From an uncultured Selenomonadales bacterium (GTDB taxonomy: Bacteria > Bacillota > Negativicutes > Acidaminococcales > Acidaminococcaceae): a stretch of 64,000 nucleotides of DNA. The DNA lies in assembly GCA_900315925.1 (NCBI GenBank), contig ONAV01000004.1:1-64000 (forward strand), read 5' to 3'. Below the pieces are notes generated by a model. The model was given only the letters and a program-made list of their open reading frames with translations, was not told the DNA's origin and ran no database searches. This document shows positions 51,246 to 64,000 of this stretch, piece after piece. Position 1 is the first letter of the stretch. Every line of letters starts with the position of its first letter. The position numbers were made by a program, and so were the translations under genes.

Positions 51246-52202
51246 TTACCTCCCCACCGTTGTCGTTGTTCCGCGAATAATCTGCACATTGGCAGTCGGG
51301 GAAGTATCTATATCCGCTCCCGGAGGAATGGTTCCCGCCGGAGGCGGTGTTACCGGCATCTTGCCGCTGGACTTTGTTACGGAATAATAGGTATCGTCGC
51401 TGATCCCGTTCGAGGGACGATACGGACGAAGTACCAGATAAATCTGCCCCAACTGAGCTTTAGCCGCCAGTTTCAGAGCATCTTCCGGTACCAGCGCCAT
51501 AGTGGCCATTGCCGGGTTACCGGTCACTTTGGGCTGACCTACCGCATTCGTATTCTGGGCTTTTGTATTTTTATCATCCGATTTAGCCCGTGTGCTAACA
51601 TCGTTTGCACTTTCAACCTGTTTATTAATAGCCAGCAACAATACATTCTGCAGAATCATTTCGCTGACCACTTTATTATTTTCTACCTGACTGGACACCA
51701 GCATCACATCAACATAATCACCGGGCTGTGCAAAACCTGCCACACCAGTCACATCGCTGATGCCCACTGTAATCGCCCGGCATTCCGGCGGAATACGACC
51801 GCTGAGACCCATGTCCAAAATGCTGGCAAATACTTTCTGCGTTGTAATAATCTCACCCTGATTAATTGCAACCCGAGTAGGACGTCCCACCAGGTCTGCC
51901 GTACTCATTAAAGCGCCATTAGGCACTTTGTTAGAGGGCATTGTCATAAGACTCAGCATTTCTTCCTTGATCAGCGTGCGTTCCGGAATGCTGGTCTTTG
52001 CCGTTACAATCGTAACATCTTTTACCTGTGCCTGCTTAACTACAGGCTGTTGTTGCGGAACCGGTTTCTGTTTTTCCGCTGTTAGCCTGGTGAGAGTAAA
52101 ATATATGAGCAGGAAAATAATCAACGCCACTACGCCACAAATCATCAATAGCTGTCGAGGTGTCAAACGCTCCATAATTGTGCTTAATTTCGGTAGTTTC
52201 AA
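51246..52202 (-). CDS. cpaB: CpaB/RcpC pilus assembly protein
   Basis: This 318-residue protein begins at a TTG with AAGGGG upstream and has one membrane helix (LLMICGVVALIIFLLIYF). A SAF domain follows (VTAKTSIPERTLIKEEML) and the RcpC core FAQPGDYVDVMLV, with a low-complexity Asn/Lys/Ala section around 200-220. It is periplasmic and works with the secretin. It is the first gene of the minus-strand operon. Confidence 0.92.
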   Translation of the reverse strand: MKLPKLSTIMERLTPRQLLMICGVVALIIFLLIYFTLTRLTAEKQKPVPQQQPVVKQAQVKDVTIVTAKTSIPERTLIKEEMLSLMTMPSNKVPNGALMSTADLVGRPTRVAINQGEIITTQKVFASILDMGLSGRIPPECRAITVGISDVTGVAGFAQPGDYVDVMLVSSQVENNKVVSEMILQNVLLLAINKQVESANDVSTRAKSDDKNTKAQNTNAVGQPKVTGNPAMATMALVPEDALKLAAKAQLGQIYLVLRPYRPSNGISDDTYYSVTKSSGKMPVTPPPAGTIPPGADIDTSPTANVQIIRGTTTTVGR

Positions 52203-52370
52203 AATAAAACCCCTTTTCTTTAATAGTTTTACTGGAAATTTATGTCTAAAATATGTTAAAATGGGAAGCGAAATAAAACTCGTATGATTTTGCGCATAAA
52301 CCTCCCACCTTACTAAGTATTATGATACCGCTTTCATAGTAGATTTGTCAAGATTTCAGAGAATAAATTT

Positions 52371-53045
52371 ATGAATTTAACAGTCTTTTCTGAACATTTA
52401 TTAATATTGCTCCCGCCCCTTCTGCTATCTTTTGTCTGTACTATAGCAGGTTCCCTCTGGATCGACAGGCTATACCGTCAGGAAAAGGATGACAGTTTGT
52501 TAAGCTTTCCGGATCAGATTGCAAAACGGGCAAAATTTCGCAAACCTTTATTGTTTTTTTTATTGTTGTTCTGCCTTGGGAAAACATGGTACGCTGTATC
52601 TATACCAACAGTAATATATTACACCGTTGCCATTATCTTTCTGTCTTTTATTACTGTCACAGATTTTGAGCAATATGTGATTTTTGACAACATGCTGTTA
52701 CCTCTTGCTGCTCTTGGCCTGTGCTATACTATACACCAGCAACTATCAATAACAGAGCATCTTGCAGCAGGTTTAGGCGGCGGATTGCTTTTTTTACTGC
52801 TTACCATTCTGACAAAAGGAGCTATCGGCGGCGGTGACATTAAACTGATTGCCGCGCTTGGGCTCTGGTTAGGGATTCGCCCATTACTCAGCGTAATCAT
52901 GTACGGCTTTCTAGCCGGAGGCGCAGCCGCCTTGTTCTTGCTGATTACAAAACAAAAAAAACGCCAGGACTACTTTGCTTACGGCCCTTACTTCGCCCTG
53001 AGCGGGATTGCGATACTGCTATCATGGATTCGTCCGCTCTTTTAA
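52371..53045 (+). CDS. tadV: Type IV/Flp prepilin peptidase (TadV/CpaA)
   Basis: This polytopic 224-residue protease cleaves Flp, TadE and probably the large pilins. The two catalytic Asp are visible in FITVTDFEQYVI and GAIGGGDIKLIAALG. It lacks the N-terminal zinc/methylase domain of PilD, as is normal for TadV. It is divergent from cpaB; the 168 bp between hold both promoters, which I cannot place with confidence. Confidence 0.9.
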   Translation: MNLTVFSEHLLILLPPLLLSFVCTIAGSLWIDRLYRQEKDDSLLSFPDQIAKRAKFRKPLLFFLLLFCLGKTWYAVSIPTVIYYTVAIIFLSFITVTDFEQYVIFDNMLLPLAALGLCYTIHQQLSITEHLAAGLGGGLLFLLLTILTKGAIGGGDIKLIAALGLWLGIRPLLSVIMYGFLAGGAAALFLLITKQKKRQDYFAYGPYFALSGIAILLSWIRPLF

Positions 53046-53074: not shown

Positions 53075-54514
53075 TCAATGCTGTAAATCAATTTCATTGT
53101 GGTTATCTTTTTCCGCACGCACCCCCTTTATTCCATAGTACCGGGCAAAAGCCACATTTTCCCAACAATTGGCATCATCAGATAGATCATTCTGAACGAT
53201 ATGAAATCCACTCATCAGCACCTCTGTTTTACCCGCCTTTCGAAACGGTTTGACGGATAAAACAGAGTTTTTATTTTTCATTTTTGTCTGCTGTACACGA
53301 AACAAAAGTTCCTGTTGCCATTCATTCGTTTTACAAAAATTTTGGAGAGTAATTACAGATGTCATAATAAAATAGATCACACCTGTTACAGCTAAAAACT
53401 TCTTTGCTCTATCCTGAATCAAATTCAGTTTATACTCGTCCTGCATCTGCCACACAATACCTGAAGCGATTATTAACCATACCGTTCCGAAAAAACCGCT
53501 CCGTTCCGGAAATTCCGGCGCCAGTAACATAACCACGGATGAGCCCAGACTGATTACACTTAAAACCGAAACAAATATTATTTCCTTTTTCAAAATTTCA
53601 CTACCACTGCTTTTATGCATTGCTCCGCATAAAAACCGTAACAAGAAATACCATAAAAAAAACTGGCAGATCATTACTTTAAAAAATGTTGAACAATTTG
53701 CCTTGATGTATTGCACACTGTCCCATCCGGTTCCATGTATCAAATAAAGACGCGATACGTTTCCGGGCGACAAAACCAACAGCAGATATCCAATAAACAA
53801 TCCTGCCAAACCCGCATACATCCAATTATGGATGCTGATTTCATGTTTATGTAAGCGTAAAAGAAAAAGAAACAGCATCAGGATAATCCAACACACACTG
53901 TTTTCATTGGTCCATCCGGAAACAATACCGAAACAAAACATAAAACCGGTAAAAAACACACTGTCGCCGATCTGTTCCTCAGGAAAATAATACTTTTTTA
54001 TAAAAGGGACCATAAATCCAAGCAGCATAACACATGTCCAAAGGTAATTGCAAGCGCCCGTCAGCCACAAAAAAACCGGCGTAAAGCCCGGCGTAAAGGC
54101 CCATAAAGCAAAAAAAATCCAAAACACTTTTTTCGGTTCAAATGAAAAAGACACTTTACCCTTATGAATGCACCAGTAAATCTCAACAACCAGCAGCGTG
54201 CCGACAAAAGCATTCACAAAATTGAACCCCACTTTTCCTTTCCACAAAAAAAGCTGGGCAAGCGTATGAGCGACCGACCTGCCCCCCCACGTCAAATAAT
54301 GCGACCATTGGGATGCCAATAAGTCAGAAAAAGACGAAACCCTGGCTGCGTTTGCAGACAGCGGGTCATTCATGGCATTCCCCTGCCAGATAAAGGAGTA
54401 CAGATAATCATCGCCAAACCCCAGTGGGGTTAAATAATTTAAAACATATAAAAATACAAAAATTATGAGAAGCGTTAACATTCCTCTCTCATCGGTTCTC
54501 ATTTTTTTCATCAT
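53075..54514 (-). CDS. DUF6056 polytopic membrane protein, copy 1
   Basis: The 479-residue protein has about 11-12 membrane helices and the family markers GFGDDYLYSFIWQG near residue 32, WGGRSVAH, ACNYLWT, GWTNENSVCW and LLVLSPGN. The Asp-Asp after the first helix and the overall plan recall GT-C glycosyltransferases that use polyprenyl-phosphate sugars, so I infer a sugar or substituent transferase on the outer face of the inner membrane. It ends with a VAFARYYGIKGVR motif shared by all three copies. It overlaps copy 2 by 26 bp. Confidence 0.75.
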   Translation of the reverse strand: MMKKMRTDERGMLTLLIIFVFLYVLNYLTPLGFGDDYLYSFIWQGNAMNDPLSANAARVSSFSDLLASQWSHYLTWGGRSVAHTLAQLFLWKGKVGFNFVNAFVGTLLVVEIYWCIHKGKVSFSFEPKKVFWIFFALWAFTPGFTPVFLWLTGACNYLWTCVMLLGFMVPFIKKYYFPEEQIGDSVFFTGFMFCFGIVSGWTNENSVCWIILMLFLFLLRLHKHEISIHNWMYAGLAGLFIGYLLLVLSPGNVSRLYLIHGTGWDSVQYIKANCSTFFKVMICQFFLWYFLLRFLCGAMHKSSGSEILKKEIIFVSVLSVISLGSSVVMLLAPEFPERSGFFGTVWLIIASGIVWQMQDEYKLNLIQDRAKKFLAVTGVIYFIMTSVITLQNFCKTNEWQQELLFRVQQTKMKNKNSVLSVKPFRKAGKTEVLMSGFHIVQNDLSDDANCWENVAFARYYGIKGVRAEKDNHNEIDLQH

Positions 54515-55922
54515 TATCTTTTTCTTTTACCATTCGAATACCCTTAATACCATAATACCGGGCAAACGCAACATTTCTCCATTCATTTTCATCCTCTGAC
54601 AATTCATAAGAAATAGTGTGGAGCGCCGTATAAAGACTTTCATTGTCGAACGGTTCTGTCATTGCTTCGACTGTAATCACAGAATCTCTTTTATCATTAC
54701 TGATATTATTCACAACAGACAATAACTTTTCTACGTATACATAACCACAATAGTAATATCGAAATGAAAAGCCTGCAGTAATAATAAAAAACACAAGGCT
54801 TACGCAAAACAGGAATTTCTTTGCGCTTTCCTGAATCAGTAATACATCATATTCTTTCTGGATTCGCAATAAAATACCCGCCCCCGCAATCAGATACAGC
54901 AGTCCGGAAAAACCGCTGCGAGGAGGAAATCCCGGCGAAAAAAGCATCACCCCGGTCATGCAGAATCCGGCCACAACCAAAATTTTAACAAGCAACACTT
55001 CCTTTTTTATTAAAGGATCGCTGTTGCCTATTTTTCTGAGTGTAAATAAAGAACGAAGCACGAAATACCATAAGAGAAACTGCAACACATAAATCAGCAT
55101 CATCATTGACAAATGCTCTTGCAACCCGGTCAGAAAATGCCAGTCAGACTGTGAAGAGGAGAGCCTGTTATAATTACCGGGCGCAAATATCAGCAACGCA
55201 TAACCGGTTACAAGTCCGATAAACCCGGAGACCATCCAGCTTTCCAGAGTATCATGGTTTTTACAATAATAAATAAACACCGCTAAAATCAAAATAATCC
55301 AGCAAACACTGTTTTCGTTCGTCCAGCCTGCTAGTATTCCAAAGAAAAATGCAATTACAGTACCAATCAGTTTATTATCGAATGAAGCCTTTTCGTCACA
55401 GTGATAATATTTATAAAAATAAGGTATCAGGAAACCAAGCAAAATCACATTGGTCCATAAATAATTACATGAACCTATAACCCATAAAAATACAACCCCA
55501 AATCCGGGTGTACAGGCCCATAACAGAAAGAATATCCAGATAATGGTACGAGAATCAAACCGAAAACTGATTTTTCCCTTATTGATACACCAATATAATT
55601 CAAAAACCAATAAAATGCTGATGAATGTGTTGGCAATATTAAAAAGTGCTTTGCCCTGCCATAAAAAAAACTGCGCCAGCACATGGGCAACGGTTCTGCC
55701 ACCCCATGTAAAATAATGTGACCACTGTGAACGGAATAAATCCTGCCAGCTTGCAACCCGGGAAACATTCTGCGGCAACGGCTCATAGATTGACTGACCT
55801 GACCAAATGAACGAATAGACATAATCATCCCCAAAGCTGATCGGGGACAGAAAATTAAAGATAAACATAAAAATAAAAATTGCAAAGATAACAAGCCAGC
55901 TCTTTTTAGTATTCATAAGCAT
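54489..55922 (-). CDS. DUF6056 polytopic membrane protein, copy 2
   Basis: This 477-residue paralogue of copy 1 keeps SFGDDYVYSFIWSG, WGGRTVAH, SCNYLWTN, GWTNENSVCW and LLIFAPGN, and ends NVAFARYYGIKGIR. Its start directly abuts the stop of the GT2 gene (TAAATG), so the two are probably translated together. The GT2 enzyme may supply the lipid-linked sugar that this protein uses. Confidence 0.75.
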   Translation of the reverse strand: MLMNTKKSWLVIFAIFIFMFIFNFLSPISFGDDYVYSFIWSGQSIYEPLPQNVSRVASWQDLFRSQWSHYFTWGGRTVAHVLAQFFLWQGKALFNIANTFISILLVFELYWCINKGKISFRFDSRTIIWIFFLLWACTPGFGVVFLWVIGSCNYLWTNVILLGFLIPYFYKYYHCDEKASFDNKLIGTVIAFFFGILAGWTNENSVCWIILILAVFIYYCKNHDTLESWMVSGFIGLVTGYALLIFAPGNYNRLSSSQSDWHFLTGLQEHLSMMMLIYVLQFLLWYFVLRSLFTLRKIGNSDPLIKKEVLLVKILVVAGFCMTGVMLFSPGFPPRSGFSGLLYLIAGAGILLRIQKEYDVLLIQESAKKFLFCVSLVFFIITAGFSFRYYYCGYVYVEKLLSVVNNISNDKRDSVITVEAMTEPFDNESLYTALHTISYELSEDENEWRNVAFARYYGIKGIRMVKEKDNDEKNENR

Positions 55923-56873
55923 TTACTTCTTTCCAGGGAATACCTTATTCCCATTATATTCGCTGACGAGATAGTCCGGTCTTCTTTTAGATTCATAAAA
56001 GATACGTCCGACATATTCGCCTATAATCCCCAGGACAATCAGCTGGATGCCTCCCATAAACAGAATAATGGAAATCATAGACGGATAACCGGCAACCGGA
56101 TCGCCAAATAACAATGTTTTTGCAATTACAAAAACCAGATAGATAAAAGCAATAGACGAAATGATGATTCCCAATATGGAAGCAAGCCGCAACGGCGCAA
56201 CAGAAAAAGAGGTGATACCATCAACTGCCAGGCCAAATAACTTTAAAAAATTCATTTTGGAATTGCCTGCCGCCCGTGGTTCCCGGTCAAACAACAATTC
56301 CTTTTTATTATAGCCTATCCAGCTGAACAAACCTTTTGTGTAACGCTGCCGTTCCCGAAGCGAACAAAGCGCATCCACCGCCTGCCGGTCAAGAAGCCGG
56401 AAATCTCCCACATCAGAAGGGATATCGATATCGGCAAATTTTTGCAGAATACGGTAATACCAGTGAGCGCTTGCTTTTTTAAACCAGGTTTCCCCTGCAC
56501 GGCTCCGGCGGCGCGCATACACATCGTCGTATCCCTTTTCCCACTCTTCAATCATCTGCGGTATCAATTCCGGAGGATCCTGCAAATCTGCATCTAATAA
56601 AATCACTGCATCTCCCTCAGCAAAATCCAGTCCCGCCAGCATTGCATTTTCCTTACCAAAATTACGGGAAAGGCTAAGATAAGAGACTGTTGAATCTTTT
56701 GTATGCAACTCCTGCATTTTTGCTAACGTATTATCCTTGCTTCCATCATTAACAAGCAAAATCTGGAACCTATACTGGCTTAACTGGCTTGTCATGTTTC
56801 GCAAGCGTTCATAAAGAAGATCAAGACTATTTTCTTCGTTGAAACAAGGAATTAAAATTGTTATTAATTTCAT
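55923..56873 (-). CDS. Family 2 polyprenyl-phosphate glycosyltransferase (GtrB/DPM1-like)
   Basis: The 316-residue protein has a GT-A domain with the metal-binding ILLDADLQDPPEL near residue 90, an N-terminal ILIPCFNEENSLDLLYERL, the acceptor motif DVGDFRLLDRQA, and two C-terminal membrane helices followed by QLIVLGIIGEYVGRIF. Such enzymes load a hexose onto undecaprenyl phosphate on the cytoplasmic face. No GtrA-type flippase is seen in the window. It lies between two DUF6056 genes. Confidence 0.93.
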   Translation of the reverse strand: MKLITILIPCFNEENSLDLLYERLRNMTSQLSQYRFQILLVNDGSKDNTLAKMQELHTKDSTVSYLSLSRNFGKENAMLAGLDFAEGDAVILLDADLQDPPELIPQMIEEWEKGYDDVYARRRSRAGETWFKKASAHWYYRILQKFADIDIPSDVGDFRLLDRQAVDALCSLRERQRYTKGLFSWIGYNKKELLFDREPRAAGNSKMNFLKLFGLAVDGITSFSVAPLRLASILGIIISSIAFIYLVFVIAKTLLFGDPVAGYPSMISIILFMGGIQLIVLGIIGEYVGRIFYESKRRPDYLVSEYNGNKVFPGKK

Positions 56874-56875
56874 AA

Positions 56876-58312
56876 TTAATCCTCTTCTGCCAGTCGTATG
56901 GCTTTAATACCATAATATACTGCTACGTCTACATTAATCGTCTGTTTTTCATCAGAAGTTAATGTATTAATTCTTGGAAGATGCCCACCTGTCAGTAAAT
57001 TAGTAAACATAAAATCATCTAATGGATAGGGAGAGTCTTTAACAATTAACATGCTTGCATCAGGGTTCATTTTTGCGCCTTCTATTTGTGATAACATAAT
57101 TTTCGATTGAATGTGATGAAGGTTGTAAAAATACACTGAAGTAATCAATGTGCACAATGTATATGCAACTGCTGTCAAGGATAGTATTTTTTTAAGAACA
57201 GGCGGAATATCGTGTGGAAATTTATTAGAACTCTTAATACTATGAACAATTCCCGCCGATATTATTATAAAAATTAAACCTGGGAAAGTACTCCTATACC
57301 GGAACTCTGGTGAAAAAATCATTACAAGCATACTCAAAAAACTCATAAGAAAATAAAAACGAGCTAACTTGAGTAATTTTCTATCATTCTCGCAAAAAAA
57401 CTTAGAACGAAACGAAACAAGATTCTTTATAACATAGAAATAGATAAAAACTCTAATGTAAAACATAATTGTAAATGTTAGCACATTCTGTTTAAGCCGT
57501 TCTACCCCTTCCATAATCTCTCCAACCTGTAAAAGCGTCAAGTATCTTACATAATTTCCAGGCGCAAAAACCAGTAAGGAATAGCCTAACAACATTCCAA
57601 AAATACTTACAATCATTATTTGTTTTTTATTCTTTTCACAATTATTGTCAGTAATTATAAAAAAACTCAAAAAAGCAATCACAAAACAAGGTACATTTTC
57701 ATTTGTCCATCCAACAATAACGCTGAATACGAACATTAACAGTCCCTTGATAACTTTTGTTTTGCCGCAGACACACTCCTGTTCCTTCGGAAACAAGTAA
57801 CTACGCTCATAAAGCAACAAAAAAGCCAACATCAAAACCATAGTCCATAAATAATTACACGATAATGTTAGCCATGTAAAAATGTCACCCAAGTAGAAAG
57901 AAAAAATCCAAACGATACAAAAAACCGCCAAAATATCTTTCGGTTTAAAATCAAATCTAACTCTTCCCTTGTCAATAATCCACTTTATCTCTAAAAGCAT
58001 TATAACAAATATTGCCGCATTCAGCAGATTAAAATACTTTTTCCCCCACCACAAAAAGGTTTGAACCAAAATATGAGCAACAGTACGCCCGCCCCATGTA
58101 AAATAATGATTCCACTGCGAATATAATACATCATATAAGCTCTTAACCCTTACTGCATCTTCTGGCAATGGTGTAATAATAGAATTACCTGTCCAGACAA
58201 ACGAATAAATATAGTCATCCATAATCAAGGGAGTACAAAAGTTAAAATACCACATCAAAAGAAAAATCCAAAACAGCACAATAAAATTTAATTTTCTATT
58301 AGAAAGACTCAT
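56876..58312 (-). CDS. DUF6056 polytopic membrane protein, copy 3
   Basis: The ATG at 58312 with AAAGGG upstream gives 478 residues; a TTG 39 bases earlier is less likely. It is the most divergent copy: LIMDDYIYSFVWTG, WGGRTVAHI, SCNYLWT, GWTNENVPCF, LLVFAPGN, ending VAVYYGIKAIRLAEED. It is 2 bp upstream of the GT2 gene. Like copies 1 and 2 it is probably a lipid-sugar-dependent transferase with a different acceptor or sugar. Confidence 0.75.
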   Translation of the reverse strand: MSLSNRKLNFIVLFWIFLLMWYFNFCTPLIMDDYIYSFVWTGNSIITPLPEDAVRVKSLYDVLYSQWNHYFTWGGRTVAHILVQTFLWWGKKYFNLLNAAIFVIMLLEIKWIIDKGRVRFDFKPKDILAVFCIVWIFSFYLGDIFTWLTLSCNYLWTMVLMLAFLLLYERSYLFPKEQECVCGKTKVIKGLLMFVFSVIVGWTNENVPCFVIAFLSFFIITDNNCEKNKKQIMIVSIFGMLLGYSLLVFAPGNYVRYLTLLQVGEIMEGVERLKQNVLTFTIMFYIRVFIYFYVIKNLVSFRSKFFCENDRKLLKLARFYFLMSFLSMLVMIFSPEFRYRSTFPGLIFIIISAGIVHSIKSSNKFPHDIPPVLKKILSLTAVAYTLCTLITSVYFYNLHHIQSKIMLSQIEGAKMNPDASMLIVKDSPYPLDDFMFTNLLTGGHLPRINTLTSDEKQTINVDVAVYYGIKAIRLAEED

Positions 58313-58362
58313 ATTCTTACCCTTTACTCCACAAGAAACACAAATATTCAATACTTATTAAA

Positions 58363-60087
58363 TTATCCTATAAACCGATTCCAATATTTATTTTTACGTA
58401 TAAGATAAGCAAAAATAAGAAATCCTAATGTTGAAAATAACGATATATAATCTGCAACAACAAATAACGGCAATCCTTTATACCATATTTTGATCTTTCC
58501 GGATCCTTCAGGCAATGCCAGTTGCATCATATGGTTGTCACTTTCTTCAATGTTAACTGCCCTTCCCGTGTTATCTGTAGCAATATACCCCGGGTAATTG
58601 ACCAAAGGCAATATAATCTTTGATTCATTCTTATTCTCAGTTTTGTAAAAAAAAGATATGTTAGTTCCGCTCTTACTGTAATTGCTGATTATCCCATCAG
58701 AAATATAACGATCTCCCTGCTCAAAAAGTTTTTGTTTATCAATGTCATTGTACAGATAGTCTGTATCAGAAACACATTTTATCCTTTCCCAAAAGACTTT
58801 CTGTGTCGGCATGTTCCAATCCGGTATTGAAGATATCGGAGCAAGATTACTAAAGGCTATTAAACTTGTAAAACAAATCAAAAACACACTTAACACCAGA
58901 TAACCATGCTTTTTTCTTTTCTTTTCTGATAAAAACTTATGAAAACAAATCCCGCCGGGAACACAAAAACACAAAGTTGAAATACCTAAAAACCGCCAGG
59001 GAAACTGCATTGTTTGAAAAAAATGTTTGAGCAAAGGAAACATGTCCCATGGGAACGAAAGATCTGCCATAAAAAGAAACAGACAGCCGGCAAAAATACA
59101 CTTCACATATATTTTTGAAAATAAGAATTCTTTCTTATCCTTTATTGTAGACTTACCTGAAGCTTTAGCCGATTTTAAATTATAACTGCGTAACATTTTC
59201 GGAAGAAAAAAATAAACCGCAACAACCAGCCAAAAATTCCACGCCAGAAAGAACCGAAACAGTACAATTGTGGGCCATCCCTGTTCGCCAAAACCATCAA
59301 CGAAATCCATAGTTATCGGCACATTTTTATAAAACAACAAAAACGGCATGATGAAATGCGCATTTAGCAAAAATACTGTTATAGTTATCACAAGTATTCG
59401 ATAAAGCTGCCTTAACGAAATGTTTTTATAATGCACTATCAAACAAAATATTCCAAATAACACCAGCGCTACACTGCACAACACATGCGACTGAATCACT
59501 GCAGAAATCGCCAATACACTCCATACATAATCTTTTACTTTAACTTTTGATTTTGCTATTAAAATTTCAATACTTGCTATTGCCAATGGCATAAAAGAAA
59601 AACCTAACAATTCTCCTAAAGCATTTCGGATATATGCATCCATTAAGTAATAGCCAGAAGAAATATATAGTAGTGTCGAAAAAAACGCAATTTTTTTTGA
59701 TTTGGTTAATAAGGTAAAACCATACCACGATGAAAAAATCCCCAACAAAAACACAATAGCAATGAATACATTAAAGCAAATTTCAACAGGCAAACCTGAC
59801 AGTTTTAATAACGCAGGTATATAAAAAAACAGACTTGGATAAAAAATACCTACCGGAGCACCCCAAAACCGTATTTCATCAGCATACATTCGCACAGGAA
59901 AAACACCGTTCTTTATTTCTTCAGCGATATTTAAGAACCTGGTAACGTGAAATACATCATCATGACCTGGTATTATTTTTGTATCTGCTAACGGAGTGAC
60001 CAAAATAAACCAGGCTACAAACAAAAAGAAAATATACGGTGGCTTTTCGCCAAGAACTTTTAAAACAAATTTTCTCATTTTATCCAT
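58363..60087 (-). CDS. Polytopic membrane protein of the YfhO/PTPS-related (GT-C-like) group
   Basis: This 574-residue protein has about 11 membrane helices. After the first helix comes PGHDDVFHVTRFLNIAEEI, the acidic loop motif of the group annotated as 6-pyruvoyl-tetrahydropterin-synthase-related membrane proteins, followed by FPVRMYADEIRFWGAPVGIFYPSL in pieces. A soluble extracytoplasmic domain lies near residues 430-545, before a final helix. I infer a glycosyltransferase or flippase-like role in the same envelope pathway. The gene is 50 bp upstream of DUF6056 copy 3. Confidence 0.65.
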   Translation of the reverse strand: MDKMRKFVLKVLGEKPPYIFFLFVAWFILVTPLADTKIIPGHDDVFHVTRFLNIAEEIKNGVFPVRMYADEIRFWGAPVGIFYPSLFFYIPALLKLSGLPVEICFNVFIAIVFLLGIFSSWYGFTLLTKSKKIAFFSTLLYISSGYYLMDAYIRNALGELLGFSFMPLAIASIEILIAKSKVKVKDYVWSVLAISAVIQSHVLCSVALVLFGIFCLIVHYKNISLRQLYRILVITITVFLLNAHFIMPFLLFYKNVPITMDFVDGFGEQGWPTIVLFRFFLAWNFWLVVAVYFFLPKMLRSYNLKSAKASGKSTIKDKKEFLFSKIYVKCIFAGCLFLFMADLSFPWDMFPLLKHFFQTMQFPWRFLGISTLCFCVPGGICFHKFLSEKKRKKHGYLVLSVFLICFTSLIAFSNLAPISSIPDWNMPTQKVFWERIKCVSDTDYLYNDIDKQKLFEQGDRYISDGIISNYSKSGTNISFFYKTENKNESKIILPLVNYPGYIATDNTGRAVNIEESDNHMMQLALPEGSGKIKIWYKGLPLFVVADYISLFSTLGFLIFAYLIRKNKYWNRFIG

Positions 60088-60160: not shown

Positions 60161-62899
60161 CTAGTATCCTGACTCTTTTTCCAAAATCTGTATTTCATTG
60201 ATTTGAAACAACTCCGGTTGCTTTGAATTAGGGGAATTCGCGACAGAAAAACGTAAATTCAGTTTTGCAGAATTTAAAACACTTTCAGGCAACACACTTG
60301 TAAGAGTTATAGTATCTTTGTTAGTTAACCGCCATTCTCCAATTTTAATACCATTTGCATACAATCGCATGTCCCTGTACGCCAACGGACTTAATGCATG
60401 GTAATCAACGGCAGACACATAATAATTAAGCAATGGATTGCAAACTACATTTATTACATAATTTCGTTCACGATTAAAACTGTCTTCCATTTGCAAAATC
60501 AGTCCCGCTTCTGGTTGTGTAATCAGCGAAGCGTACGTTGTTTCCAGATCGCCCCACCCATACGTCTTATATTTGAAAGAATTGCCAAAACTGGAAAAAT
60601 CTATTTTCTCTCCTATTTTGTAGATCCTATTGTCAGGTTCTTTTTTCTTAATTTCTCCTAATGGCACCCATGAATCTCTGTTTTTTGCCGGCCCATCTAC
60701 CACATACTTAATAAATTTTCCCGTTTTATCAGTATCTTCATAATAAAAAAACCTTTTATTATGAGCAGTCCGAGCAGTTATATATTTGCCCGTTTTATCG
60801 AAAACTGCGAATATTTTAGGCATTAACTCAGATACAGTGTTGGAAATATGATTTATTATTATCTGATTATGTTCCTCATCCCGATGCTTCAGCAAAAACA
60901 ACGGGCGCATCCCCAATTCATGATGATAACCATGATCTGCAATAACAGCGAAGGTTGTACTACTATAAGCATTAATCTTTTTCATCTGAGACAGATATTC
61001 CCTGACAATTACCAATGAACCAAGCGCCTGCTTATAGGCAGTTCCTTTTTCCCCCGGTTTCAGCGGCTCCACGTTTTCGTTATATGAATAGGGTGGGTGT
61101 ACGCCACTAAGATAATAAAACTTAAACATATTTTTACCGGTAAGCTGCAGTCCTTTTTTTAATTTTTCATAAAAACCATTATCATCATTTTCATTATAGG
61201 GTTTATTCTTATCAAAGACTGCAGGATTAGTAATACCAGGGTTGTACCGATAATAGATGCGTTTTAAACAGTGAGGAGACATACGGAATTTTGTTACTTG
61301 ACCGAAACTTTCGGCAACTTCGTCTTTCATCACTACCTGTTCCTCAATCAAGTTGTCTACAGGCGCTTTTCGGTCTACATAAATCCCGTTGGCATAAAGG
61401 TTTATATTAAAATTTAATACCTTTAATTTTTTATAATACAGATTATCGTCCCATGCTTTAGCTAAATATTCCGGAAACCTTGTTGCAGGGTCATATAACT
61501 GTCCTGTCAGAATTTCAGGAAGTGAAAAATCTGTAAAGCCAAATGAAGATATCGTATTGTCGTAAAAAGTAAAATCTTTTAAATCTTCAATAACCTCCGG
61601 ATTTTTTTGCATGATTTCTTCGAAAATACTTGCGTCAAACGCATCTATCAAGAAAATGATAATGTTATCTTTATCCGAAACAGTATACAAATCTTTTGCG
61701 GTTAAAACACCTGCTTTTTCGTTCTCCAGTATGATATTTTTTTGAATTGGATTATTCTTTAACGTTATTACCAAGACAACACACTGAACCGCAATAACGA
61801 TAAATGAAATTGGTTTAATATATTTCTTAATCTTATCCGTGTTAAACTTTAAATGCTTAAAACAGATAAACACTGCACCCAGACAAACCAGCCAGATAAA
61901 GGCGTTTACTAAACCGGGTATTGCATATTTATCCCAATCTATCTCATGCCCGTCAAACAGTCCATAATCAATAGCAATAATGTAGCTTTGGATGAACACA
62001 CCGAATAACAAACCGGTTAATAATGAAAGGTAAATACCGCTTACTTTTTTACGCCGGCAAAGAATATAAGCCAAAAGAAGAATAACAAAATACTTAACGG
62101 TATCTGCAAGAAAATATTTTAAAATATCTTTGTAATCAAACCAAAGCTGACTGGCATTTTTAATGTAAATGTCTGTTGGTACAAATAAGCCCACTGTTAA
62201 TGTCAGAGCAAAGATAATGTGAAATGCTAATTCGTTTTCTGAAACAAAGTCTCCTATCCATCCCAGCCTTCTACTTAACACACTATCCAACAACGACCAA
62301 ACAAGATTGCATGTCCAAAACACCAACAGAGCGGAAGGCGCTTTATATAATAATACCAAAAAGAAAGCGCCGATAGCAACTGTTTGCAACCGTTCCTTTC
62401 TGGTAATATCCGGTAGCATGAAAGCATAAACACAAGTTACCAACGTCATCACAAACGGAAGAAGATTAATATCCGCCAGCAAATGATCCGGCTGTCCAAG
62501 ATTTGGAATAAACCCCCAGACCACACCTTGTATTTCTGTCAGACCGGAAAGCATATAATATGCCGCCGTCAAAAATGGAATCTGAAAAATAAAACCCAGT
62601 GCTGAACGAATCGCATATAACGGATGATATCCATAACGTTTATATAGCCATTGCAACTGTTCATACTGTTCCCGCCCAGTATACTGCTTTTTAATTTCAT
62701 CAATCTGCGGGGCCAGGATAGCCTGGATTTTATGCTCCTTGTTTTGCATTTGTTGGGCTTTTTTATTAAAAGGATATAACACAACAAACGTAAAAAGAGA
62801 CAGCAACACCAAGGAAATACCATAGTTTCCCGTCATATCGTACGCAAACAAATATAAAGCTTTATAAATTTTTATAAGTGGTTCAAATAAACTTTGCAT
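60161..62899 (-). CDS. YidC/Oxa1-like membrane domain fused to a sulfatase/phosphotransferase domain
   Basis: The 912-residue protein has three parts. Residues 1-215 are a YidC/Oxa1-type domain: MTGNYGISLVLLSLFTFVVL, a coiled cytoplasmic hairpin, GYHPLYAIRSALGFIFQIPF, IPNLGQPDHLL and PSALLVFWTCNLVWSLLD. The Arg that is nearly invariant five residues before the first-helix Pro is Phe38. Residues about 220-385 add more membrane helices. Residues 410-740 are an alkaline-phosphatase-superfamily domain of the LtaS kind, with Asp419 (FLIDAFD), the likely nucleophile Thr456 (FGFTDFS), His601 and Asp655-His656 (ADHG). The end, about 770-912, is a beta domain like that in the next gene. I infer transfer of a phospho-substituent to a surface polymer. 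Confidence 0.8.
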   Translation of the reverse strand: MQSLFEPLIKIYKALYLFAYDMTGNYGISLVLLSLFTFVVLYPFNKKAQQMQNKEHKIQAILAPQIDEIKKQYTGREQYEQLQWLYKRYGYHPLYAIRSALGFIFQIPFLTAAYYMLSGLTEIQGVVWGFIPNLGQPDHLLADINLLPFVMTLVTCVYAFMLPDITRKERLQTVAIGAFFLVLLYKAPSALLVFWTCNLVWSLLDSVLSRRLGWIGDFVSENELAFHIIFALTLTVGLFVPTDIYIKNASQLWFDYKDILKYFLADTVKYFVILLLAYILCRRKKVSGIYLSLLTGLLFGVFIQSYIIAIDYGLFDGHEIDWDKYAIPGLVNAFIWLVCLGAVFICFKHLKFNTDKIKKYIKPISFIVIAVQCVVLVITLKNNPIQKNIILENEKAGVLTAKDLYTVSDKDNIIIFLIDAFDASIFEEIMQKNPEVIEDLKDFTFYDNTISSFGFTDFSLPEILTGQLYDPATRFPEYLAKAWDDNLYYKKLKVLNFNINLYANGIYVDRKAPVDNLIEEQVVMKDEVAESFGQVTKFRMSPHCLKRIYYRYNPGITNPAVFDKNKPYNENDDNGFYEKLKKGLQLTGKNMFKFYYLSGVHPPYSYNENVEPLKPGEKGTAYKQALGSLVIVREYLSQMKKINAYSSTTFAVIADHGYHHELGMRPLFLLKHRDEEHNQIIINHISNTVSELMPKIFAVFDKTGKYITARTAHNKRFFYYEDTDKTGKFIKYVVDGPAKNRDSWVPLGEIKKKEPDNRIYKIGEKIDFSSFGNSFKYKTYGWGDLETTYASLITQPEAGLILQMEDSFNRERNYVINVVCNPLLNYYVSAVDYHALSPLAYRDMRLYANGIKIGEWRLTNKDTITLTSVLPESVLNSAKLNLRFSVANSPNSKQPELFQINEIQILEKESGY

Positions 62900-62919: not shown

Positions 62920-64000
62920 TTATTGTTCTTCAATCTTAAACTTTTTCCATAAAATTCCCAAATCATTAAGCGAGCCAAAATCCTTTATAGACAGCCCATT
63001 GTGATCTATTGTAAAACGTATCCTGAGCAAATTACTGTTAATAACAGCTGCCGGTATTCTAAACGAAAAATCATAGTTCTTGTTATCAAACAAGACATCA
63101 GTAATATAAACATCATTAACATAAAACTTAGCCGTTCTGTACGGCAAATTTGATATATACGAATCAGCGGTAAAGCTGAAAACCAAGTCCGTATCTTTTT
63201 GATAATTACTTAAATTAAACTGTAAGGTGGACTCCGCCCCCACCGACCAACTACCTTTGGGTTCCGATTTTTCCATCCAACCGGTACCCTGGAACATCTC
63301 AAAATTCGGATTCTTATCAGTACAATCTATTTCTTCTCCCAGCGAATAAACTCTTCCCTGATTTTTATACCAACTTCCCAATGTTTCTTTTTTCTTCCAA
63401 GAATTTAAATCTTTGGCATTGCCAACGATTTCATATTCAACAAAATCTCTTTCCTGTTGTAAATAGTACTTTCTGACCGGCAAAGAGAAATTCCTTTGAT
63501 TTCCTTTCTCATTATCATCAAATCGTTGAAAAAGCATCGGAAGGAATTCCGAATACGAAATAGATTCATCAGATACTTTTATATCAGTCATCTGACTGCC
63601 CGGTTGCTTCATGCAAAGTAACGGCCGACTTCCAGGTTGGTTAAAATCCCCATGATCCGCCATAATCACAAATGTACTGTCGTCAAATATTCCCTTTTCT
63701 TTCATTTGGTGTATATACTCAATAACAATCTTCATAACACCGACAGATTGTTCATAACGATTTAAGTTATTCTTCTCGTGAAGCCCGAACTCCATATTAC
63801 GATTGTAAATATATGGATAATGTGCGCCTGATAAGTGATAAAAACGAAAACAATTCTTATTATCAGTATAAGTTAAACCTTTCTTTAATTCAGAGTAAAA
63901 ATCCCCGTCATTTACTTCATATATTTGAACTTTTCGATTTTTCAATAGGCTTGCCTTACCATTTGGATCATATAGATAAAACAATTGCTTAAGATAATGC
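62920..64000 (-). CDS. Sulfatase/phosphotransferase paralogue, 5' part beyond the window
   Basis: The frame is open to the window edge; about 360 C-terminal residues are seen. It aligns with the C-terminal half of the fusion protein downstream: HYLKQLFYLYDPNGK corresponds to its HCLKRIYYRYNPG, then FYHLSGAHYPYIYN with the metal His, FVIMADHGDFNQPGSRPLL, and a C-terminal beta domain (RTAKFYVNDVYITDVLF, LLRIRFTIDHNG) that may bind sugar. Whether it also carries a YidC-like start cannot be seen. It is 20 bp upstream of the fusion gene. Confidence 0.75.
   Translation of the reverse strand, partial: HYLKQLFYLYDPNGKASLLKNRKVQIYEVNDGDFYSELKKGLTYTDNKNCFRFYHLSGAHYPYIYNRNMEFGLHEKNNLNRYEQSVGVMKIVIEYIHQMKEKGIFDDSTFVIMADHGDFNQPGSRPLLCMKQPGSQMTDIKVSDESISYSEFLPMLFQRFDDNEKGNQRNFSLPVRKYYLQQERDFVEYEIVGNAKDLNSWKKKETLGSWYKNQGRVYSLGEEIDCTDKNPNFEMFQGTGWMEKSEPKGSWSVGAESTLQFNLSNYQKDTDLVFSFTADSYISNLPYRTAKFYVNDVYITDVLFDNKNYDFSFRIPAAVINSNLLRIRFTIDHNGLSIKDFGSLNDLGILWKKFKIEEQ

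Follow-up and report, generated by a model that had tools for sequence, protein, structure and literature searches.

A minus-strand gene near the end of a 64,000-nt stretch from an uncultured gut bacterium, a Selenomonadales member of the Acidaminococcaceae (assembly GCA_900315925.1, contig ONAV01000004.1, positions 1 to 64,000, hereafter the window) encodes a YidC~sulfatase fusion, in which a YidC/Oxa1 domain, five further membrane helices and a domain of the alkaline phosphatase superfamily follow one another on one chain. The best overall explanation is a surface phospho-decoration module with the YidC fold as lipid path or dock, to which we give an even chance. For the functional class, transfer of phospho-alcohol or phosphonate groups to the surface by a three-module complex, we regard the case as good. 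This reading is plausible because of a third partner, a TagF-like protein with a Y[IL]DPGTG membrane segment that is encoded outside the window. Each domain is individually of a known kind, and it is their combination that is new to the open literature searched: no description of the YidC~sulfatase combination, of the clade-wide loss of groove charge or of the re-fused three-module set was found in open-access publications, and domain databases may list the architecture uncommented.

The open reading frame starts with ATG and runs for 912 codons uninterrupted by a stop (Table 1). It stands in tandem with a second gene of the same architecture that is cut by the window edge and is whole in the genome (907 residues, about 2.7 kb, contig G000:C51 62920-65643); the two proteins share 46% identity. 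The genome is a draft metagenome-type assembly of 100 contigs that is 88% complete, which would favour an assembly, frameshift or pseudogene artefact. However, the second intact copy, the 67 aligned relatives in several phyla and the conservation of catalytic and groove positions throughout rule this out, and we rate its chance as practically nil. A genuine two-domain protein, as proposed by the initial sequence-only reading, is borne out by relatives that carry neither stop nor frameshift between the domains and by the wide occurrence of the architecture.

Scanning 84,980 genomes with short conserved peptides, by which the locus count is a lower bound, revealed at least 60 loci, 49 with a YidC domain of the fusion clade and, counted apart, one with only a divergent copy. 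The loci belong to Bacillota (Negativicutes, Clostridia, Erysipelotrichia), Actinomycetota, Spirochaetota, Nitrospirota, Bacteroidota and Riflebacteria, and up to four fusions occur in tandem at a single locus. Sixty-seven fusions of the same architecture were aligned, covering several phyla and including one set from cultured or named strains. A record titled Acinetobacter, a title that may be wrong, shares 58% identity with the window protein along the aligned chain. With a profile built from the YidC part, the fusions scored above 150 bits and other YidCs 100 bits or less. In the tree computed from 91 YidC domains, one side of a branch with a Shimodaira-Hasegawa-like approximate likelihood ratio test (SH-aLRT) value of 100 is made up of the clade, whose stem measures 1.78 changes per column. 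Inside the clade taxa are intermixed, which suggests horizontal transfer.

Residues 1-215, which had been recognized from the sequence as Oxa1/YidC-like, are predicted to keep the five-helix Oxa1/YidC fold with its cytoplasmic hairpin in full. The Pfam model 60KD_IMP (PF02096) matched residues 26-208 above its cut-off (72.7 bits, cut-off 35, E 4.6e-20), and the first 210 residues matched YidC in a phmmer search against PDB. Because matches to the phosphatase domain took up the VIA list for the whole chain, a separate model and search were made for the YidC part. AlphaFold gave this part a predicted local distance difference test (pLDDT) score of 90.3, and VIA placed it closest to E. coli YidC (6al2, Z 18.9, root mean square deviation (rmsd) 3.2, 199 residues) and B. 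halodurans YidC2 (3wo7, Z 18.0). Next came a chain of 9olf, which from the entry title we take to be human OXA1L (12.8), and the best unrelated entry scored 6.7. The domain thus resembles the YidC/Oxa1/Alb3 family (PF02096, TIGR03592) in its five-helix fold, its hairpin, Z scores of 18-19 and a Pfam match above cut-off. It departs from that family as part of a long-stem clade that lacks the groove Lys/Arg in 79 of 79 domains, and the window protein scores below the TIGR03592 (YidC insertase) cut-off (66.3 bits compared to the curated 84.3). Unlike canonical YidC, it is joined to a phosphotransferase and lies outside the rnpA-yidC-jag region.

Pairs of the 67 aligned fusions are on average 50% identical in their YidC parts, compared to 40% in the phosphatase domain and 27% in the helical linker. 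Since the YidC domain is the most conserved part of the fusion, it is under selection and no relic, and the possibility of a vestigial domain was rejected. Asn145, Thr152, Tyr185, Trp195 and Asn198 are each invariant (67/67), position 155 is Asn, Ser or Thr, and the cytoplasmic hairpin is strongly conserved. Judged from this alignment, the clade has acquired new invariant polar positions in the membrane part, namely Asn145, Thr152 and Asn198, together with Asn/Ser/Thr155.

A JBC study describes a positive groove charge as strictly conserved in all YidC homologues and as required for groove hydration (PMC8920935). The fusion clade breaks this rule of a positive charge in every YidC-family groove. 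In the column of E. coli YidC Arg366, the 79 clade domains carry Asn (41), Ser (30), Phe (3), Thr (3), Tyr (1) or Gln (1) and never Lys or Arg, compared to 54 of 56 YidC domains outside the clade that keep a positive residue (Lys 32, Arg 22; Asn in the remaining 2). The initial reading had reported loss of the groove Arg at Phe38, five residues before Pro43 of the first helix; these residues are correct and the loss is real, but it is clade-wide, with Asn or Ser as the usual residue and Phe or Tyr confined to the sub-clade of the window protein. A compensating positive charge elsewhere in the groove was considered and rejected: Lys205, in the column of E. coli Gln527 near the cytoplasmic end of the fifth transmembrane helix (TM5), is found in 73 of 79 domains, but in the window protein this residue is Asp, and the remaining newly conserved positions are neutral and polar. 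Outside the fusion clade, a groove Asn was also seen in two stand-alone YidCs that belong to a single family and are otherwise ordinary (L039:1492-2301, L055:1333-2112).

At the position of E. coli residue 517 the fusions carry Trp. Because S. mutans YidC2 with a neutral residue at the Arg position and Trp at the 517 position is inactive (PMC8920935), and the fusions show the same pair, they would by analogy be predicted to be poor insertases. This argues against the view that the YidC domain has stayed a dedicated insertase or chaperone, serving the membrane proteins encoded as partners in its operon, and that the fusion merely holds the activities together. Such a role would agree with the fully kept Oxa1 fold, with the short N-terminal membrane segment of the TagF-like partner, which is of the kind that YidC inserts, and with the tolerance of E. 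coli YidC to the absence of Arg366 when residue 517 is aromatic or hydrophilic (PMC8920935), given the Trp of the fusions. Nevertheless, tandem expansion to 3-4 fusions per locus tracks the transferase and not a need for insertion, and a canonical YidC of ~222-225 residues is present besides the fusions in each of the three window-family genomes checked (G000, the window genome, G012 and G028). We therefore consider a retained insertase role improbable, and the fusion as a substitute for the cell's YidC is ruled out by these canonical copies. In the window genome the canonical protein (221 residues) is separately encoded on contig C75, next to genes that from their sequences we take to be RNase P protein-like, Jag-like, MnmE-like and DnaA-like.

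The AlphaFold model of the full chain, computed with the 67 relatives, has a pLDDT of 76.6 overall and of about 90 in the YidC part and most of residues 405-750. It places the linker helices at residues 223-247, 256-280, 284-308, 322-349 and 354-382. The cytoplasmic loops are rich in Lys and Arg, and the loop charges fit a YidC-like topology that continues into five helices, with the phosphatase domain ending up outside. Foldseek with this model returned MCR-1, PbgA, LtaP, LtaS and E. coli YidC in one list. VIA aligned the phosphatase domain with sulfatases, PbgA and LtaS/LtaP at Z about 20-22, PbgA being aligned over residues 211-751, although loosely and with a large rmsd. The Pfam Sulfatase model (PF00884) matched residues 412-664 below its cut-off (17.9 bits, cut-off 25, E 0.002), while a relative of the same architecture scored above it (34 bits). 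Asp419, Thr456, His601, Asp655 and His656, taken at first reading as the mark of a complete alkaline-phosphatase-superfamily domain, are all in place and conserved in 66 to 67 of the 67 fusions. On the model, the outer domain is predicted to be of the LtaS/EptA/PbgA type, with a Thr nucleophile and Asp/Asp-His metal-ligand positions.

The fusion thus resembles LtaS, EptA/MCR, PbgA/YejM and OpgB in its five helices and outward alkaline-phosphatase-type domain with Thr nucleophile and metal-ligand positions. It differs from them in the extra N-terminal YidC domain and does not fall into the LtaS family model NF053595, to which it had no match with E values allowed up to 1; the part of the tandem copy inside the window scored 19.9 bits compared to a cut-off of 970. 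The C-terminal extension has low pLDDT in the full-chain model and is confined to the sub-clade of the window protein (3% column occupancy in the family); in the extension of the G012 relative a weak, below-cut-off match to DUF7024 was observed.

In VIA, sulfatases and phosphonate monoester hydrolases scored just as high as LtaS or PbgA, and the fold alone cannot discriminate between transferase and hydrolase. The outer domain might be a hydrolase or remodelling enzyme that strips off phosphate, phosphonate or sulfate groups, with ordinary capsule genes as neighbours. We judge this very improbable, as its membrane part is joined as in LtaS, EptA/MCR and PbgA, the nucleophile position is Thr in 67 of 67 fusions and not the Cys or Ser of formylglycine sulfatases, and the fusion is tightly paired with a homologue of CDP-polyol (CDP, cytidine diphosphate) transferases and with genes that make, not degrade, activated head groups.

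The partner gene lies directly upstream of the two window fusions (contig positions 65651-67006) and encodes a protein of 451 residues in which a YLDPGTG membrane segment is combined with a PF04464 domain. PF04464 scores in partners were 29.4, 40.5 and 58.5 bits (cut-off 22.1), with RPHP and D-x-S motifs (motifs in A5), and the partner profile matched Cps3D (8qoy, E 2e-8) and TarL (8va1, E 4e-5) in PDB. Like TagB/TagF/TarL and Cps3D, the partner thus combines an above-cut-off PF04464 match with both motifs; unlike these, it is a short (400-450 residues) single-domain protein with an N-terminal Y[IL]DPGTG segment and is sometimes fused to YidC or sulfatase. Pairing with a transferase dependent on CDP or cytidine monophosphate (CMP) also sets the fusion apart from LtaS and EptA, which need none.

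The partner profile matched 36 of 51 loci and none of the loci examined for other YidCs. Across 398 genomes of the phylum, partner matches with E below 1e-150 occurred in all three genomes that carry the fusion and in no others, with copy numbers (2, 1 and 2) equal to those of the fusion (2, 1 and 2); two further genomes gave weaker matches. Six of the seven fusion-bearing genomes among 120 of one other family also had the partner, and every other genome of this sample with a partner-like match carries TagF fused to YidC. Fisher tests gave 9.6e-8 for the 398 and 1.9e-9 for the 120 genomes, both values ignoring shared descent and horizontal transfer. A generic capsule neighbourhood without a specific partner was ruled out by this genome-wide pairing.

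Moreover, the three modules recur in different arrangements, in which the sulfatase-type calls of types B to E are motifs read by eye and not curated profile matches. Type A, seen in the window and most loci, consists of YidC~sulfatase plus Y[IL]DPGTG~TagF. In type B (Erysipelothrix, L063) a lone YidC of 227 residues accompanies a Y[IL]DPGTG~TagF that leads into a membrane~sulfatase part; at L063:10678-13766 (+) a frameshift was noted inside the TagF part, ahead of the transmembrane~sulfatase part in the same transcript direction. In type C (G455, G477, G506, G541), YidC~TagF precedes a second protein that contains a YIDPS segment and in G455 runs on into a sulfatase-type domain. Type D (L104) joins sulfatase~YidC~TagF in a single chain of 1202 residues, after which comes a small YIDPS protein. 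In type E (G433), TagF and two sulfatase-type genes lie in a complete phosphonate cluster with no adjacent YidC module. The groove Lys is retained in the YidC domains of types C and D, which score far below the clade; by sequence, these types look like separate assemblies of the same module set. Repeated re-fusion is the strongest reason for treating the three modules as one machine.

The genes nearby indicate what might be transferred. Beside the fusion in G304, phosphoenolpyruvate (PEP) mutase, phosphonopyruvate decarboxylase and a PhnW-type transaminase (PhnW-AepZ) scored above curated cut-offs and are joined by LicC-like genes. Homologues of these phosphonate genes occur in G376, and G433 has such a cluster without the fusion. 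The PEP mutase gene adjoins the fusion in G304 and G376, and homologues of it were found in eight further scan loci. Other loci point to other donors: in G012 a TarJ-like dehydrogenase accompanies a TarI-like ribitol-5-phosphate cytidylyltransferase, a TagD-like protein fused to an oxidoreductase is encoded both in the window genome and in G028, and some neighbours contain choline-kinase domains. A single donor common to all loci was ruled out, as neighbours differ between ribitol, glycerol-type, phosphonate and choline-like. Taken together, these neighbours support the link to lipid- or polymer-phosphate transfer that the initial reading had suggested.

A LicC-like domain fused to a threonine-phosphate-decarboxylase-like domain (about 600 residues) is encoded in eleven loci (L061:12560-14362 (+) and ten similar). 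Its assignment as PntC plus phosphonate transaminase was rejected, the second half being nearer to threonine-phosphate decarboxylases (6oux, E 7e-45). It is possible that this neighbour implies an aminoalcohol-phosphate donor also, and that the protein provides a one-protein route to CDP-ethanolamine or CDP-aminopropanol. Fusions of a TagD-like cytidylyltransferase with a GFO/IDH/MocA oxidoreductase (L023:7039-8382 (-), L062:4231-5571 (+)) might make and reduce a CDP-polyol precursor. A MarR-type winged helix was noticed N-terminal to a LicC-like nucleotidyltransferase on one chain (L023:15354-16247 (+), with homologues at L127:9612-10484 and L129:13178-14077). In the window genome, 6-10 kb upstream of the tandem pair, lie ABC transporter genes, a LicC-like enzyme and a substrate-binding protein nearest to the aminoethylphosphonate PhnS2 family, although below its cut-off. 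These upstream genes would fit head-group salvage rather than synthesis.

Loading, flipping and transfer would make up the simplest scheme in which every part has a role, and as a whole we put it just below even chance. Cytoplasmic nucleotidyltransferases would, as their families suggest, make CDP- or CMP-activated head groups such as aminoethylphosphonate, phosphocholine- or phosphoethanolamine-like groups, or ribitol- or glycerol-phosphate. The TagF/TarL-like enzyme, anchored by its Y[IL]DPGTG segment, would then load the head group from CDP or CMP onto an acceptor in the membrane, on the inner side. With a groove that is neutral-polar instead of charged, the YidC-fold domain would dock the TagF-like enzyme and may offer the loaded polar head a path to the outer leaflet. 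Finally, the outward alkaline-phosphatase-superfamily domain, with Thr456 and its metal site, would move the phosphate or phosphonate from lipid to a surface glycan. Loading and transfer are proposed because of the families involved (TagF/TarL; LtaS/EptA), and the crossing role because YidC, Oxa1 and Get1 scramble lipids in vitro through the same groove (PMC10491306). That an Oxa1/YidC domain no longer inserts proteins and instead brings phospho-alcohol or phosphonate head groups, linked to lipid, through the membrane to its fused outer phosphotransferase is put forward tentatively, as a serious possibility that we would on balance sooner doubt than accept.

The main rival to such a crossing role is that the YidC domain serves as a docking scaffold only, which binds the Y[IL]DPGTG helix and couples the inner- and outer-face phosphotransferases while lipids cross by other means. 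Consistent with docking, a Y[IL]DP membrane segment is almost always present in whichever arrangement, as TagF N-terminus, as separate small protein or on the sulfatase; the conserved hairpin and the existence of an architecture without a YidC neighbour (G433) agree with it as well. However, types C and D have TagF covalently on YidC and yet keep a separate Y[IL]DP helix and the complete five-helix YidC fold, and the conservation of the polar groove positions, which ranks among the highest of all residues, goes beyond what a static dock would seem to need. We therefore regard a pure scaffold as rather unlikely.

Some observations weigh against the decoration module as proposed. Since the G433 cluster has no YidC neighbour, the YidC fold is dispensable in some such systems or is supplied by another protein. 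The separately assembled forms (L104, G455) keep the groove Lys, which implies that the partnership does not depend on a neutral groove. As 15 of the 51 loci show no TagF-like gene in the sequence examined, contig ends explaining only some of these, the partner is either not universal or not in every case a close neighbour. Furthermore, a search for PEP mutase in the window genome gave no match, the enzyme being present in the relatives G304 and G376.

The Pnt pathway for cell-surface aminoethylphosphonate has been described up to CMP-aminoethylphosphonate (CMP-AEP), its later steps being called unknown (PMC6697681). Counterparts of its genes (Ppm, Ppd, AEPT, PntC) lie beside the fusion or the partner in several genomes. 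That work reports LicD-like transferases and glycosyltransferases as neighbours and makes no mention of YidC, sulfatase-type or glycerophosphotransferase genes (PMC6697681). For the later steps of surface phosphonate tailoring, the YidC~sulfatase fusion and its TagF-like partner together offer a concrete candidate. In its proposed logic of loading inside, crossing and transferring outside, the set resembles three-component decoration of the Gtr/ArnC type (polyprenyl-phosphate loading enzyme, flippase, outer transferase); it differs in dealing with phosphate or phosphonate head groups instead of sugars and in employing unrelated families at all three steps. If the crossing role of the YidC domain is true, it would close the gap that separates CMP-aminoethylphosphonate or CDP-polyol from the decorated surface, and the fusion would be the first Oxa1-fold protein with a dedicated non-protein cargo. 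The data suggest that the YidC fold has been reused to help decorate the cell surface, and there is a real chance that this role is categorically new. The physiological relevance of scrambling by insertases could not be shown, as it is probably redundant and the proteins are otherwise critical for survival (PMC10491306); an accessory YidC-fold domain that exists beside a canonical YidC and is fused to an enzyme class with lipid substrates makes the role of the fold open to deletion tests.

Table 1. Features of the YidC~sulfatase fusion gene and its tandem copy (positions in the window).
Feature	Position	Strand	Basis
YidC~sulfatase fusion gene, 912 residues	60161..62899	minus	Open reading frame, 67-member family alignment, whole-chain AlphaFold model
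YidC/Oxa1-fold domain, residues 1-212	62264..62899	minus	PF02096 match, AlphaFold model, VIA
Phe38 codon (aligned with E. coli YidC Arg366)	62786..62788	minus	Column comparison of YidC domains
Five further transmembrane helices	61688..62263	minus	Model helices, loop charges
Alkaline-phosphatase-superfamily (LtaS/EptA/PbgA-like) domain, residues 405-756	60632..61687	minus	Foldseek, VIA
Asp419 codon, metal-ligand position	61643..61645	minus	67/67 Asp in family alignment
Thr456 codon, nucleophile position	61532..61534	minus	67/67 Thr in family alignment
His601 codon	61097..61099	minus	66/67 His in family alignment
Asp655-His656 codons, metal-ligand positions	60932..60937	minus	66/67 each, one gap
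C-terminal beta-rich extension, residues 757-912	60164..60631	minus	Low-confidence model
Second YidC~sulfatase gene, 3' part, tandem	62920..64000	minus	Reading frame cut by window edge

Beyond the fusion gene, the window holds a multi-helix reading frame of 574 residues (58363-60087, minus) with no Pfam match over cut-off, which separates the fusion from three DUF6056 (PF19528) paralogues of 477-491 residues (53075-58351, minus). The paralogues flank one polyprenyl-phosphate-type GT2 gene (55923-56873; 325 bits to PgfS), and together these genes look like a sugar-decoration set with several alternative outer transferases. Adjoining this cluster at 51246-53045, CpaB-like and prepilin-peptidase-like proteins were read by eye, probably part of a Flp-type pilus locus.

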